Positions 3,469 to 57,247 of a stretch of DNA of 64,000 nucleotides are shown piece by piece (the first letter of the stretch is position 1; the number at the start of each line of letters is the position of its first letter). Location of the stretch: NCBI GenBank assembly GCA_003132405.1, contig PKXQ01000121.1, forward strand, positions 38,361 to 102,360. Reading direction: 5' to 3'. Source of the DNA: Acidobacteriaceae bacterium (GTDB taxonomy: Bacteria > Acidobacteriota > Terriglobia > Terriglobales > Acidobacteriaceae). The translations under genes were made by a program, and so were the position numbers. The notes below the pieces were generated by a model that saw nothing but the letters and a program-made list of their open reading frames with translations, had not been told where the DNA came from and ran no database searches.

Positions 3469-3543
3469 GGGCGCATAACTCAGCGGTAGAGTGCCATCCT
3501 CACACGGTGGAAGTCGTAGGTTCAAATCCTACTGCGCCCACCA
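3469..3543 (+). tRNA. tRNA-Val (anticodon CAC)
   Basis: A 75-nt cloverleaf. The acceptor arm is GGGCGCA paired with TGCGCCC, followed by discriminator A and an encoded CCA (3541-3543). The D arm is ACTC/GAGT with loop AGCGGTA. The anticodon stem CCATC/GGTGG encloses the loop CTCACAC, giving anticodon CAC for valine GUG codons. The T arm contains GTAGG-TTCAAAT-CCTAC. All stems pair, including one G-T in the anticodon stem. Confidence 0.95.
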
Positions 3544-52478: not shown

Positions 52479-53327
52479 CTAGCCCGCATTCCGCAACTCT
52501 TGAGCAATTCGCGGCAGCACCGCCCTCAGCAGCGCAATGAACTGCCCCATCACTCGTCGCCCCACTTCAAGCACCTCTTCATGCACCAGCGCCTTATCAA
52601 GAATTCCTGCCGCCATATTCGTCACGCATGAAATCGCCAAAACATTCATCCCCATGTGCCGCGCCACAATCGCCTCCGGCACCGTCGACATCCCCACCAG
52701 ATCGGCGCCAATCGTCCGCAAATATCGAATCTCCGCCGGAGTCTCATAACTCGGCCCCGCCAGCGCCGCATAAACCCCCTCGCGCGGCGCAATCGAAAGT
52801 TTCTCCGCCTCCTCCAGCGCAATCTCTCGATAGCGCTTAGCATAGGTATAACTCATGTCAGGGAAGCGCGGCCCAAAGCGCTCATCATTCGCCCCCGTCA
52901 GCGGATTCTGTCTTTGCAAATTAATATGATCGCGCAGAATCACCAGCGCCCCCTGCCCGTACTCGACATTAATCCCGCCAGCCGCATTGGTAAGAATCAA
53001 AGCGCATATGCCAGCGCGTCCCAGCACCCGCGTAGGAAACGCAACCTCCGCCGCCGGATACCCTTCATACAAATGCACGCGCCCCTGCATCACCGCCACC
53101 GGAACGACGCCGCACTTTCCCACCACTAGTTGCCCAGCATGACCCGCCGCCGTCGAGCGCGGAAACGTAGGAATGTGCGCGTAGGGAATGCGAACAGCAT
53201 CCTTAAGATCGTCAGCAAATGACCCCAGCCCCGATCCCAGCACCAGTCCAATCTGCGGGCGCAAGGCAGTCTGCGAAAGCACAAACGTCGCCGCCGATTC
53301 CGCCCGAGTAAAAAGATCAGGAGTCAT
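52479..53327 (-). CDS. Purine nucleoside phosphorylase
   Basis: A 282-residue trimeric PNP (inosine/guanosine + phosphate to base + ribose-1-P). The phosphate loop is LVLGSGLGSF, followed by RSTAAGHAGQLVVG, VMQGRVHLYEGY and the base-binding segment LTNAAGGIN, with AGPSYETPAEIR and GADLVGMSTVPEAIVARHMG near the end. These identify the PNP/MTAP family with the mammalian-type active site. It is convergent with rnhB, and 90 bp downstream of the adenosine-deaminase-like gene on the same strand, which could supply inosine. Confidence 0.95.
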   Translation of the reverse strand: MTPDLFTRAESAATFVLSQTALRPQIGLVLGSGLGSFADDLKDAVRIPYAHIPTFPRSTAAGHAGQLVVGKCGVVPVAVMQGRVHLYEGYPAAEVAFPTRVLGRAGICALILTNAAGGINVEYGQGALVILRDHINLQRQNPLTGANDERFGPRFPDMSYTYAKRYREIALEEAEKLSIAPREGVYAALAGPSYETPAEIRYLRTIGADLVGMSTVPEAIVARHMGMNVLAISCVTNMAAGILDKALVHEEVLEVGRRVMGQFIALLRAVLPRIAQELRNAG

Positions 53328-53371
53328 AAAAAATCAAATCGCCGCAAACACAGCGCGAAAAAATCACGTAG

Positions 53372-53414
53372 GGACGGCCGCCCTCGGCCGTCCAGCCGGG
53401 CAAAGCCCGGCTGC
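53372..53414. repeat. Double REP-like hairpin (GACGGCCG...CGGCCGTC and CAGCCGGG...CCCGGCTG)
   Basis: Two adjacent perfect hairpins, 53372-53393 and 53394-53414, in the gap between the deaminase-like gene and the PNP gene. A partly decayed copy is at 60377-60415. Confidence 0.85.
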
Positions 53415-53417
53415 GCT

Positions 53418-54986
53418 TCAAAACTGTTTCTCAAACTCCGAGAAAGCCCGCTCCAACTTCCACTGCACCCGAGCCCGCTCACTCGCAGCAAGAAACTTCT
53501 CACATTTACCGGAGACGCGATCACTCGATACTTTCTCATCCGCGCAAGCCGCAACCCGCCCAAACTCGCCGCTGCCGGGACTCCAAAGACTATCCCCCGC
53601 AATAAAACTATGCTCCAGGCTCGCCCGCGCCATGCGCTTCAACTCCGCGTAAGACAACCCATAAGTCTCAGCCGCGCGCAAATATTCGTGCGTCATGTCG
53701 CTGCGCGAAACACCTTCATCGTCGGTCGCCAGCGCCACCGGCACTCCATACTTCGTATACACCGGCAGCGGATGCCGCGCCCCACTCACCCCCAGAATCA
53801 CATCATTCGACGTCAGGCAAATCTCGACCAGCACATTCTTCGTCGCCATCTCCTGCAACAATCCGATCGGATCATCCTCGTTCATCACCGCTGTACCATG
53901 CCCAATCCGTTCCGCTCCCGCGCGCTCAATCGATTCTCGTATATGAAACCGCAACCCCTCCGGCGGCACCAGCCCCATCCACAATTCGTCCGCATGCAAC
54001 GACACATGCGTCGCTGGATAAAACTTATGCAGCGCCTCAATGATCCGCATATGCAGATCGAAATCGTGCATCGGCACGTAATAATCTTCCGGCATCACCA
54101 GGTTAAATCCCACAAACCGCGGATCGGCTTTCGTCAACTCGAAGCCCAGCAAAATCTGCGCAAAGACCTGCTCGCGCGGCAGGCCCCGCAACACCTGATA
54201 CAAATAACGCAGCGTCACAGCGCATCCCGGAGCGGCCTGCGCCGTCCCGCAGTGCAGCACTTCTTTTTCCCGCGCCTCATCGGAATCAAGTTGCCTGCGC
54301 ACCGATGCCACTACATCCGACATTCCCCCGGCCAGCAATTTGTCGCGCAGCTTGCTGAAATCGTCCGCCGTCGATCCCGGCGTCGAACCGGACGTCGATC
54401 CAACTTCCCATCCAATCTTCGTGCCAAGAATCGCCGCCTGCGCGCCGTCCGCCGTGTGCATCAACTCCACATACTGCAGATGATCCTCCGCCGCTCGCGC
54501 CGCGACCTCCGCCAGCGCGTCGCCCACGTGCTTCTCCATCGCCGGGCCAAACTTTTCAAACGTCGCAAAAAAATGGTCGTGCCCCGACTCCTCCGCCGCA
54601 TGCCAATTTCGCATCGACCACGCGTCGATCAGTTGGCCATAAAGAATGTGGTCCTGATAAGCGCAGCGCACCGACGGCTTATTCGTATAAGAGTCGCAAG
54701 CGTCGCAAGAAGCATGGATCAGCTTCGAAGTGCCGCGATCCACGCACAGCGCATTCTCCGAAGCCCAGTCGATAAAGCTCTCCGCATAAATCGCCCCGCT
54801 CAAATGAACATGCAGATCGCCGCCCTTCGGCACCTCTTGCAAGAACGCCTGCAGCAATCCCGGATTGTGCCGCACCGATTCGAAATACTTCGCCGCTTTA
54901 TCCTCGGCGCTCTCCGCCGCGGAAATTCGCACAAGAACAAAGACCATCCAGATGCAACCGAGAGGTGCTAAACGCAGTTTTCGCAT
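53418..54986 (-). CDS. Secreted adenosine-deaminase-like protein (ADGF type)
   Basis: A 522-residue protein with a signal-like N-terminus (CIWMVFVLVRISAAES). Metal ligands: His59 and His61 in GGDLHVHLSGAIY, the histidine in HVSLHADELWMG, the catalytic histidine in ERIGHGTAV and the aspartates in ALATDDEGVSRS. These are the adenosine/AMP deaminase family sites, with the larger ADGF/CECR1-like N-terminal region that includes a C-D-x-C-x-x-C stretch. Export suggests scavenging of extracellular adenosine. ATG at 54986 has GGAGGG eight bases upstream; the open frame reaches 55079. PNP follows, suggesting a purine-salvage pair. Confidence 0.85.
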   Translation of the reverse strand: MRKLRLAPLGCIWMVFVLVRISAAESAEDKAAKYFESVRHNPGLLQAFLQEVPKGGDLHVHLSGAIYAESFIDWASENALCVDRGTSKLIHASCDACDSYTNKPSVRCAYQDHILYGQLIDAWSMRNWHAAEESGHDHFFATFEKFGPAMEKHVGDALAEVAARAAEDHLQYVELMHTADGAQAAILGTKIGWEVGSTSGSTPGSTADDFSKLRDKLLAGGMSDVVASVRRQLDSDEAREKEVLHCGTAQAAPGCAVTLRYLYQVLRGLPREQVFAQILLGFELTKADPRFVGFNLVMPEDYYVPMHDFDLHMRIIEALHKFYPATHVSLHADELWMGLVPPEGLRFHIRESIERAGAERIGHGTAVMNEDDPIGLLQEMATKNVLVEICLTSNDVILGVSGARHPLPVYTKYGVPVALATDDEGVSRSDMTHEYLRAAETYGLSYAELKRMARASLEHSFIAGDSLWSPGSGEFGRVAACADEKVSSDRVSGKCEKFLAASERARVQWKLERAFSEFEKQF

Positions 54987-55344
54987 CGCCAAAACCCTCC
55001 AACCACCCTTCCAGTTCACCGTGCAATTGTAGAAAAAGCGATTGTAGGCCATAAGTATCGTCATCGGAACCGGAACCAATCCGCAAGATAGACAGTATTT
55101 ATGCTGCTAAACCCATGATTTGCACAATCACAATCCTCTGTGATCTCAAACCCAAAGCGCGTCCATTCCACCATGAAACCCAGAAAACCGCATGGATGCT
55201 GGCGATTTCGCAATCCAATCCAGGCGATTGCACAATTTGCGCGTCACCCCGCTGTGCATGAGCTGCACTCGATTGATACGCAATAACTTACAGACGTATG
55301 AATTTCATTGACGCAAAAAACAGATATGCTAAAACCATAATCGT

Positions 55345-55674
55345 TCTTTGATACGTTCTGAAGTTTTTCCGGTTGGTGCGGCGTCCGGGGCTCAAGCGTA
55401 GTCACTCAGGCAACCGCGAGGTGAGTCTGGGAGGGCGAGCAAGGGTCTATAGCTAAGCGCTGGTCGAGGAGAACAGGAGCCTCTGTCGAAGGCAGGATAG
55501 AGTCCCGAGGCGTTGGACTGATTTATCCGGTTGGCGGTGAGCCCGGAGCCCGAGCAAAGATCGTCTTACAATGAACCCGCAAGGGAGTTGTAGGAAAGGG
55601 TCAGCAAGGGTCTAAACGCGAGCTACTGGCCGAGACGAATGAATCCAACATCACCTCGGGACTCTCTATTTTTG
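55345..55674 (+). ncRNA. Candidate structured RNA made of two related units
   Basis: No gene occurs between 54987 and 55773. On the plus strand two units share, in order, CCGGTTGG (55369; 55527), a hairpin capped by a GNRA tetraloop (CC-GCGA-GG in ACTCA...TGAGT, 55404-55425; CCC-GCAA-GGG inside CTTACAA...TTGTAGG, 55565-55593), AGCAAGGGTCTA (55438; 55603) and CTGG(T/C)CGAG (55460; 55626). The second unit is closed by a long helix: ATAGAG-TCCCGAGG and GTTGGA (55497-55517) pair with TCCAAC (55644) and CCTCGGGACTC-TCTAT (55654-55669), followed by TTTTT. TTGACG at 55308 may be a -35 box. GNRA loops and the T-run favour this strand. I cannot match it to tmRNA, RNase P, 6S or SRP RNA. Confidence 0.6.
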
Positions 55675-55720
55675 CAGCCGTAATAAAACTTTCACGTTTC
55701 CAAGCTTTGCCGCACAGAAT

Positions 55721-55775
55721 CTTTCCCGTCCGTAGCCTTTCCTGCCACCTGCCTGTTCTGCTTTTCCTGCCCTTC
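55721..55775. repeat. Word repeat J2 (TTTCC(T/C)G units)
   Basis: TTTCCCGTCCGTAGCC, TTTCCTGCCACCTGCC, TGTTCTGCTTTTCCTGCCC in tandem, ending at the stop of the peptidase gene. Same words as 48798-48864; in both cases the tract abuts the 3' end of a minus-strand gene. Confidence 0.6.
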
Positions 55776-57201
55776 ACTCCCCATATCTCCCCTTCAACTC
55801 GCTGGCCAGCTCATCCCGTAACTGCCGGTAATCCGAATGCACCGTAGCCCGCAGCGCCGCTTCCGTCGAACTGCCCTGCGAAAGCATCTCGAGAATCCGA
55901 GTAATCTCGCTCATCCCATAAGCGTCGCGTATATATTCCGTAGCCGCCAGTGACTCAGCATAAGCCGCGCTAGCCTGCGGAGCCGAAAAGCTCATAAAGC
56001 TCCCTTCGAGCACATTAAAAGGAATCTCGCTCCCCGACGCAAACAGCATCGACAATTGATGCCCATAAGGCGCCGCTGACTTACCCTCTTCAACCTGCGC
56101 AATGCCCTCATTCAACCAAGTCGGGCAGCGATTGCTCGCCATCTGCGAAATAAACGAATGCGTCAACTCATGTTTCAAAATCCGCGCCAACTCTGGCGTA
56201 ACGCTCTGCACCCCGCTGATCGGAATCCGCAGCTTGCCATCATTAACCGCGCCGCTCCATGAAGGCGCCCGCGTCACATCGAAAAACGCCTGCTGCGTAT
56301 ACAGCGTGACGGCAATCGTATTGTGCGGAGAGTACCCGAGATCGCGCACCAGGTCGTCATACTCCGAGTCAAGCGTCGCGACCAGGTCGCGCCTGAAATT
56401 CTCTAAAGTATCCTTGCCTTCAAAATGTAGGTTGAAGTGATTGCTCTCGCGCTGCGAAAACTCCGACTCCGCCGTCGATTCCCTCTCCGCCCTAGCCAGA
56501 TATTGGCTGACCGTAGCATCCGGACGCAGCGCCAAAGACTTTTTCCACGCCCGAATCGCCTCCGGCGTATGATCGCTGGCAAATTGCACAAACCCCAGCA
56601 TCCCCAACGCATCCGCCGAATCGGGAGCAACACTGGCCGCGTGTTGCGCGTAAGTCAGCGCCTCCGCCGCATGCCCCGTGCGCAGAAGCGTAGCCGCGTA
56701 ATAGATCAGCAAAGTCGCATTATCGGGCTGAAAGCGCAGCGCCGATTCGTAATAAACCTTCGCCCGAGGAAAATTGCCGTGGTCGGACTCATGCTTGCCC
56801 GCCAGAAAATACGCCGTCGCCGCGAGTTCCGAATTCCCCGTCTGCGCGGTGCTGGCCAGCGCATCCGTATCCACCTTGCCATCGTGTATGACTTTGCCAG
56901 CTACATCGGCTTCATGGCTGAACGAGGGAGGCTCGGGAGTAATATCGATCGCACCGCCGCCTCCGGAACCTGAATGCACCGGAGCGACACCGCCCGTCTC
57001 TATGCGCTCGACCGACGCCTTCGGAATCGCATAAGTATCTTCGCCAAGGTCGTATTCGACTCGATCTTTATTTTCTCGAACCTGGTCGGCCCAGATGGTG
57101 CGGCCATTCTTAAGATGAATGACGTCGGCCGACGCGGGCAGCGCCACCACCAGCGCCAGCATCACAAGCACTAGAATAAAGATCGGGACAAGGCCTCGCA
57201 C
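55774..57201 (-). CDS. TPR-containing zinc metallopeptidase (MA clan, HExxH)
   Basis: A protein of about 475 residues. A hydrophobic export signal (LVPIFILVLVMLALVVALPASA) precedes a small domain with VIHLKNGRTIWADQV and VEYDLGEDTYAIPKASVERI, then TPR repeats from about 110 to 235 (ALRFQPDNATLLIYYAATLL). The peptidase part has HELTHSFISQM (zinc His-Glu-His) and WLNEGIAQVEEG with the third ligand glutamate near 365-390. It is probably periplasmic. The start is uncertain: GTG at 57201 gives a compact signal peptide, TTG at 57246 extends it by 15 residues. It is divergent from the M1 peptidase gene. Confidence 0.8.
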   Translation of the reverse strand: MRGLVPIFILVLVMLALVVALPASADVIHLKNGRTIWADQVRENKDRVEYDLGEDTYAIPKASVERIETGGVAPVHSGSGGGGAIDITPEPPSFSHEADVAGKVIHDGKVDTDALASTAQTGNSELAATAYFLAGKHESDHGNFPRAKVYYESALRFQPDNATLLIYYAATLLRTGHAAEALTYAQHAASVAPDSADALGMLGFVQFASDHTPEAIRAWKKSLALRPDATVSQYLARAERESTAESEFSQRESNHFNLHFEGKDTLENFRRDLVATLDSEYDDLVRDLGYSPHNTIAVTLYTQQAFFDVTRAPSWSGAVNDGKLRIPISGVQSVTPELARILKHELTHSFISQMASNRCPTWLNEGIAQVEEGKSAAPYGHQLSMLFASGSEIPFNVLEGSFMSFSAPQASAAYAESLAATEYIRDAYGMSEITRILEMLSQGSSTEAALRATVHSDYRQLRDELASELKGRYGE

Positions 57202-57247
57202 TCGGCTGATTCTAGCAACCGTGCTGGGGGCCAGTAAGGTGACCAAG

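Follow-up and report, generated by a model that had tools for sequence, protein, structure and literature searches.

Positions 55345-55674 of the plus strand, an intergenic part of the 64,000-nt window (the whole stretch of DNA analysed), are well supported by sequence comparison as encoding a conserved, free-standing structured RNA, for which there are no expression data. A free-standing RNA had been preferred to a riboswitch in the initial annotation, and the homologues, the covariation, the lack of an Rfam match and the varied, mostly divergent or convergent gene context all agree with that choice. That annotation did not include the hairpin arrays, the second genomic copies in relatives or, at the start of the RNA, the promoter-like site and boxA-like 5' end, all described below.

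The intergenic region is flanked by two minus-strand genes. The RNA is divergent from the first, encoding an adenosine deaminase domain (53418-55079; PF00962, E 1.2e-24), and convergent with the second, encoding a Peptidase_MA_2 domain and TPR repeats (55774-57246; PF13485, E 1.2e-16), as had been claimed for the 3' neighbour. The adenosine deaminase gene and a phosphorylase-superfamily gene (PF01048) lie in a row beside the RNA (52479-55079). A coding region was ruled out, since stops interrupt the element in all six frames. The 421-nt stretch 55300-55720 has a predicted folding energy of -148.1 kcal/mol (z -2.89) and beats 100 of 100 dinucleotide shuffles.

The four ordered sequence blocks reported previously were located where they had been placed: CCGGTTGG at 55369 in unit 1 and 55527 in unit 2, the GNRA hairpins with GCGA in 55415-55420 and GCAA in 55576-55585, AGCAAGGGTCTA at 55438 and 55603, and CTGG[TC]CGAG at 55460 and 55626, all on the plus strand. 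The distance between the units, given earlier as about 160 nt, was found to be 158 nt.

Two homologous rods

The unit 1 rod occupies 55345-55492 (+) and was aligned in 51 sequences, with 40 pairs and 98.7 % of cells paired. It is closed by helix P1 (55346-55352 with 55485-55491) and ends in an apical hairpin with a GCGA tetraloop (55406-55430), which rests on covariation and expanded copies and is where several relatives carry hairpin arrays. The unit 2 rod occupies 55496-55667 (+) and was aligned in 54 sequences, with 52 pairs and 96.6 % of cells paired. The helix expected to enclose it consists of 12 + 7 bp: the P1 5' arm at 55499-55510 pairs with 55654-55665 (11 of 12 pairs changed on both sides) and the P2 5' arm at 55512-55518 pairs with approximately 55643-55649 (6 of 7), so that 17 of the 19 pairs have changed on both sides. 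The 3' arm of P1 is followed by TTTTT (55669-55673), which gives the RNA a terminator-like 3' end at 55654-55673.

A covariance check on each unit, which had been proposed for this locus, was run with shuffled and slid controls, and both units covary. In unit 2, two-sided changes are present in 26 of 52 pairs (shuffled mean 14.0), and the covariation score is 0.227 in comparison to 0.133 for shuffled and 0.048-0.066 for slid alignments. The corresponding values for unit 1 are 11 of 40 pairs (shuffled mean 6.6, a count reached by 1 of 500 shuffles) and 0.230 in comparison to 0.145 and 0.050-0.083; none of 500 shuffles reached the score of either unit. The shuffles leave the relatedness among the sequences in place and are therefore taken as support and not as a probability. 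The earlier observation that the hairpin stems vary and yet keep their shape holds for the apical stems; in the apical hairpin of unit 1 (helices 5 and 6), each of the 7 pairs shows changes on both sides. Across 87 full-length copies, two-sided changes were counted in 51 of 110 pairs, without a shuffle control.

The two units, described initially as related, are homologous, since a profile built on unit 2 alone also recognizes unit 1, with E 3.2e-15 to 1.1e-4, in 83 of 90 loci; the other seven are truncated, expanded or diverged loci. The unit 2 covariance model likewise recognizes unit 1 of the window (55.3 bits, E 1.3e-8) and, in the class sample, found unit 1 beside 8 of 8 unit 2 matches (E 1.6e-10 to 3.9e-7).

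According to the covariation alignments, the core of each rod contains a wobble-rich helix, in which CCGGTTGG (55527-55534) pairs with CTGGCCGAG (55626-55634) in unit 2 and 55369-55376 with 55460-55469 in unit 1, all on the plus strand. Both units have a U.G, U.G, G.U step in common, the three pairs being kept in 51, 51 and 51 of the 51 unit 1 sequences and in 54, 54 and 53 of the 54 unit 2 sequences; in the RNA as a whole, 15 wobble pairs are each retained by 90 % or more of 87 copies. The middle of the rod is near-invariant in each unit, so the pairs there rest more on their fit and on the symmetry between the units than on covariation. The conserved unpaired bases form short internal loops, not a long open seed.

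The register of the core helix is less certain. The pairing CCGGU/ACUGG between the first and the last block, as suggested initially, can form but is probably not the main register. Alignment columns 35-208 (n=54) contain GC in 44 sequences, GU in 5, AU in 4 and a gap in 1, and this two-sided change fits better with the longer register CCGGUUGG/CUGGCCGAG. This preference is provisional, since the longer register places a C.A mismatch at columns 42-202 in 42 of 54 sequences and the CCGGU/ACUGG pairs also remain pairable in nearly all sequences. It is possible that the core helix switches between the two registers, for which there are no test data.

Distribution and relation to known RNA families

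A homology search in Acidobacteriota, another check proposed for this locus, demonstrated that the RNA is widespread in the family of the source genome. In the own genus 23 of 24 genomes (own included) contain a match at E<=2e-47, the only exception being a genome that is 71 % complete (G005). In the family, 88 of 200 genomes, spread over 48 of 79 genera, match at E<=1e-8, and many of them carry two loci; this DNA search may have missed diverged copies. Among the 80 matches listed by a pattern scan of GTDB contigs, 73 were confirmed as loci by the model and 7 were due to chance. Among the matches listed, the confirmed loci come from entries under Acidobacteria, Acidobacteriales, Acidobacteriaceae, Terriglobia and Terriglobales, and also from Sulfotelmatobacter, Korobacter and Angelobacter, so that all 73 fit the initial guess of Acidobacteriota. 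One relative, G078, carries a single copy at C1:93023. The unit 2 model scored 120-194 bits on the plus strand versus at most 27 bits on the opposite strand, where weak matches of this kind occur at true loci.

In broader samples, matches were obtained in 7 of 200 genomes of the class and in 4 of 149 genomes of the phylum, all in the own family, and no match was found in these two samples outside that family of Acidobacteriota. Both samples included own-family genomes, in a number that is not shown, and were searched with stricter filters. In a set of 22 chosen genomes examined without that restriction, both positive controls matched and the other 20 (18 from the own family and 2 from other families) gave no convincing match; one of them, G112, has a 21-bit match with E 0.255, in which neither the AGGGTC motif nor the boxA motif is present. 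The RNA thus seems to be absent from part of the family, as judged from these searches. No match was found in 50,697 phage records, in plasmid records or among the matches listed in a pattern scan of viral contigs, and a phage or plasmid origin was rejected on these grounds. One homologous locus (L059, 3001-3284) carries a copy in which about 44 model positions are absent from unit 2; this copy is possibly decaying or minimal.

No Rfam family matches the locus or nine homologous loci from relatives. A search of the whole window with Rfam 15 at gathering thresholds yielded only a tRNA at 3469-3540. At E<=10 just three weak, unrelated matches were obtained in 55080-55774, and at E<=0.5 nothing was found in nine homologous loci of divergent relatives. 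6S RNA is stand-alone, rod-like and untranslated, properties that the present RNA shares, but the 6S model (RF00013) does not match the locus and a separate 6S gene is present in 9 of 10 genomes, the own genome included. A Y RNA, the partner of Ro (TROVE) proteins, is not supported either: TROVE proteins occur in 41 of 200 family genomes and the RNA in 88 of 200, and the 18 genomes with both equal the 18.0 expected if the two were independent, when the two samples are taken as the same 200 genomes. Acido-1 (RF01686) and Acido-Lenti-1 (RF01687) are likewise structured non-coding RNAs reported from Acidobacteria and are included in Rfam (PMC2864571); their models were unmatched at E<=10 in 55080-55774 and at E<=0.5 in the nine homologous loci.

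No description of such an RNA was found in open-licence papers, and a word search of PMC11109978 finds no mention of Acidobacteria. As far as these tools reach, the RNA family is new, being neither in Rfam 15 nor described in the open-licence literature, while its functional type may prove to be known already once its partners are found. Few published RNA families were found for this phylum, which is abundant in soil, and the present class extends them with alignments, a consensus fold and 152 distinct full copies.

Promoter-like site and boxA-like 5' end

A -35-like TTGACG is present at 55308-55313 (+), and TTGA[CT] occurs in all 136 aligned upstream regions. It is followed in the window, after a 16-bp spacer, by the extended -10-like motif TGcTAAAAC (55327-55335, +), assigned from position counts and TAaAA-like across the 136 regions. 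The distance from TTGA[CT] to TTCTT (n=136) is 36 nt in 82 regions, 35 nt in 29, 40 nt in 16 and some other value in 9. The transcription start is inferred from these motifs to lie at approximately 55341-55344. Further upstream, the same alignment revealed a conserved block, TGCAC...CA....TGTG.A....cTGCActcg.tTG (55228-55275, +), which is possibly a regulator site; this function is only inferred from conservation and the regulon is unknown.

The 5' end of the RNA, TTCTTTGATA (55344-55353, +), is boxA-like according to the copy counts and doubles as the 5' arm of unit 1 P1; its first bases, TTCTTTGACA, resemble the boxA consensus. The sequence TCTTTGACA is found within the first 25 nt of 128 of the 152 distinct copies, and the window's own copy is TCTTTGATA, one base off TCTTTGACA. 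Because TTCTT served as the anchor for aligning the 136 upstream regions, the first five boxA positions in that alignment are circular; no such anchor was used in the 87-copy pair count and the 152-copy boxA count.

The two strands of unit 1 P1 differ in conservation. The 5' arm is near-fixed, and the 3' arm alternates between bases that pair by Watson-Crick and by wobble: of 112 copies, 68 have U.G and 39 have U-A as the fifth pair, and 79 have G-C and 32 have G.U as the sixth. This tally covers 112 of 142 copies, the other 30 having been left out where a simple rule placed no arm. The asymmetry indicates a second role of the 5' sequence. Its conservation could also have another cause, as it lies at or next to the inferred start and serves as a pairing strand.

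The 9-mer TCTTTGACA was also found 158 nt upstream of the 27F site at the start of 16S in G077 (L276 reverse complement, approximately 3169), a family member without the RNA. The chance of its occurrence in that 400-nt leader is 0.0013 under a first-order model, calculated post hoc. The evidence comes from a single intact leader, three other operons being masked, and this leader was reached via 5S, RF00177 having located 16S in 0 of 4.

In enterobacterial rRNA, boxC, which forms the 5' strand of the leader-trailer helix, is near-invariant and its partner varies, pairing by Watson-Crick or wobble, and boxA tethering has been proposed to aid the formation of this helix (PMC10250234). The present RNA resembles such leaders in having a boxA-like sequence near its 5' end and a closing helix with a fixed 5' strand and a partner that varies by wobble (PMC10250234). 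It differs from them in that its helix encloses a short tandem-rod RNA instead of rRNA and in that the helix includes the boxA-like sequence.

Possible function and rival readings

The evidence favours action in trans, in the absence of any expression, protein-binding or phenotype data. The reading that we prefer, tentatively and at somewhat under an even chance, is that the locus constitutes a gene of its own, encoding an untranslated, trans-acting structured RNA of about 330 nt that serves as a boxA/Nus-assisted, protein-binding bivalent scaffold, a function that is inferred. The parts that have support in the sequence are a sigma70-like promoter of its own, the 5' boxA-like sequence, a U-run preceded by the closing helix at the 3' end, and two homologous rods that consist of an irregular helix interrupted by short conserved internal loops, with conserved wobble pairs and, in the common form, a GNRA cap. 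In the inferred course of events, NusB-S10 would attach to the boxA of the nascent RNA, as it does in rRNA leaders, shield the untranslated transcript from Rho and tether the 5' end, allowing the long-range closing helix of unit 1 to form; RNA polymerase would halt at the unit 2 closing helix and U-run. Such boxA/Nus assembly is made plausible by the rRNA parallel, in which boxA tethering has been proposed to aid the leader-trailer helix (PMC10250234). The duplicated, near-invariant rod cores may then represent two copies of one protein-binding surface, so that the mature RNA would be a bivalent scaffold (RNP). The apical loops would be a tolerant site at which some lineages add arrays of small hairpins, presumably for more contacts.

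A more speculative proposal, with a limited chance of being right, is that this is a new class of RNA, a boxA-tethered and co-transcriptionally assembled platform derived from a rod duplication, whose apical port expands and sets the number of partners. If this were true, lineages would expand the apical port from one GNRA hairpin to about ten. Both the assembly and the partners of the RNA are directly testable, given its rRNA-like start, its duplicated rod and the progression in related species from a single hairpin to an array.

The length data are as follows. The 152 distinct full copies have length quartiles of 326, 328 and 332 nt; 17 copies are at least 370 nt long, 10 at least 450 nt and 6 at least 550 nt, the maximum being 666 nt. 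In the long copies that were folded, the additional nucleotides are located apically, either in unit 1 or, as in L244, L246 and L247, in unit 2. When the 10 longest copies were folded as single sequences, 3 to 13 hairpins were predicted per element, with at least 8 in five of them; 30 of their 74 loops are GNRA and 22 are GNCR, and 220 of 256 loops are GNRA in 135 short copies. The arrays could be aligned in three genomes of one genus, where 22 of 151 consensus pairs have changed on both sides. As 38 of the 151 pairs are disrupted or contain a gap in one or more of the three sequences, and the covariation term is only -1.46, it is likely, not proven, that the modelled arrays are conserved stems.

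Instead of being an RNP scaffold, the RNA could be regulatory and act mainly through base pairing to other RNAs or, as a sponge, through titration of a regulator. We regard this as unlikely and still worth keeping in view: the gene is stand-alone with a possible regulator site upstream, and its expanded forms contain many similar hairpins, as known sponge RNAs do. However, the conserved unpaired bases are confined to the short internal loops and offer no long open seed for pairing, and a sponge for CsrA would need GGA-type loops, none of which is among the common loops listed (mostly GNRA and GNCR).

An RNA-only homo-oligomer of the kind formed by GOLLD, ROOL and OLE is quite unlikely in our estimation. 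These are large, ornate bacterial RNAs (PMC12286853), and the present RNA shares with them the character of a large, strongly folded orphan RNA with many hairpins. It is ornate and conserved, has no obvious partner gene and carries hairpin arrays, and its palindromic CCGG motifs and GNRA loops could, by inference, provide RNA-RNA contacts. Against this, it matches none of the GOLLD, ROOL and OLE families in Rfam, consists of two homologous rods behind a boxA-like 5' end, measures only about 330 nt in the common form and is limited in the samples to one bacterial family, without a match in the phage and plasmid records or among the matches listed for viral contigs; there are no oligomer data.

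That the RNA is a tandem riboswitch, or that it attenuates a neighbouring gene, is very improbable. Glycine riboswitches have tandem aptamers, and the RNA is like them in having two homologous structured units in a row, here with a terminator-like end. It differs in being unmatched in the Rfam scans and in having no consistent downstream gene in cis. The context was examined for 150 loci distinct in unit 2, with genes called crudely as the longest open frames. Of the 136 loci with a downstream neighbour, 42 have it on the same strand, as a cis-regulator would require, but the other 94 have it on the opposite strand, as in the window; upstream, the neighbour is on the opposite strand in 86 of 137 loci and on the same strand in 51. 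Adenosine deaminase, phosphorylase, PALP, Band_7/SPFH and DUF5131 domains recur beside the RNA (Pfam, representatives), as do, by eye, ABC transporter-like and carboxylase subunit-like genes. No protein cluster occupies the downstream position in more than a minority of the 136 loci, their neighbours have no functional theme, and no consistent partner gene stands beside the RNA. Similarity to relatives stops at the U-run (approximately 55675-55681), that is, at the 3' end of the RNA. The varied and mostly divergent or convergent neighbours disfavour a riboswitch, and a cis-regulator was rejected for want of a consistent co-directional gene downstream.

A repeat or mobile element whose inverted repeats merely mimic a structured RNA, suggested by the frequent contig ends and by the two copies often present per genome, is scarcely tenable because of synteny, the adenosine deaminase gene aligning with the window over 300 bases or more in 13 of 49 related loci, and of covariation, with compensatory changes in both units, and neither phage nor plasmid records contain a match. 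The remaining related loci are second copies, lie on short contigs or are too diverged.

In a tree of 16 within-genome pairs, in which 8 of 29 inner branches have support below 80, the copies are sisters in 5 genomes (G015, G061, G105, G132 and G231) and non-sisters in the other 11, which likewise speaks against a repeat. Four pairs are near-identical (L025/L056, L053/L069, L074/L075 and L047/L066, in G015, G061, G132 and G231). This pattern of sequence relationships suggests an old duplication of the locus with occasional gene conversion.
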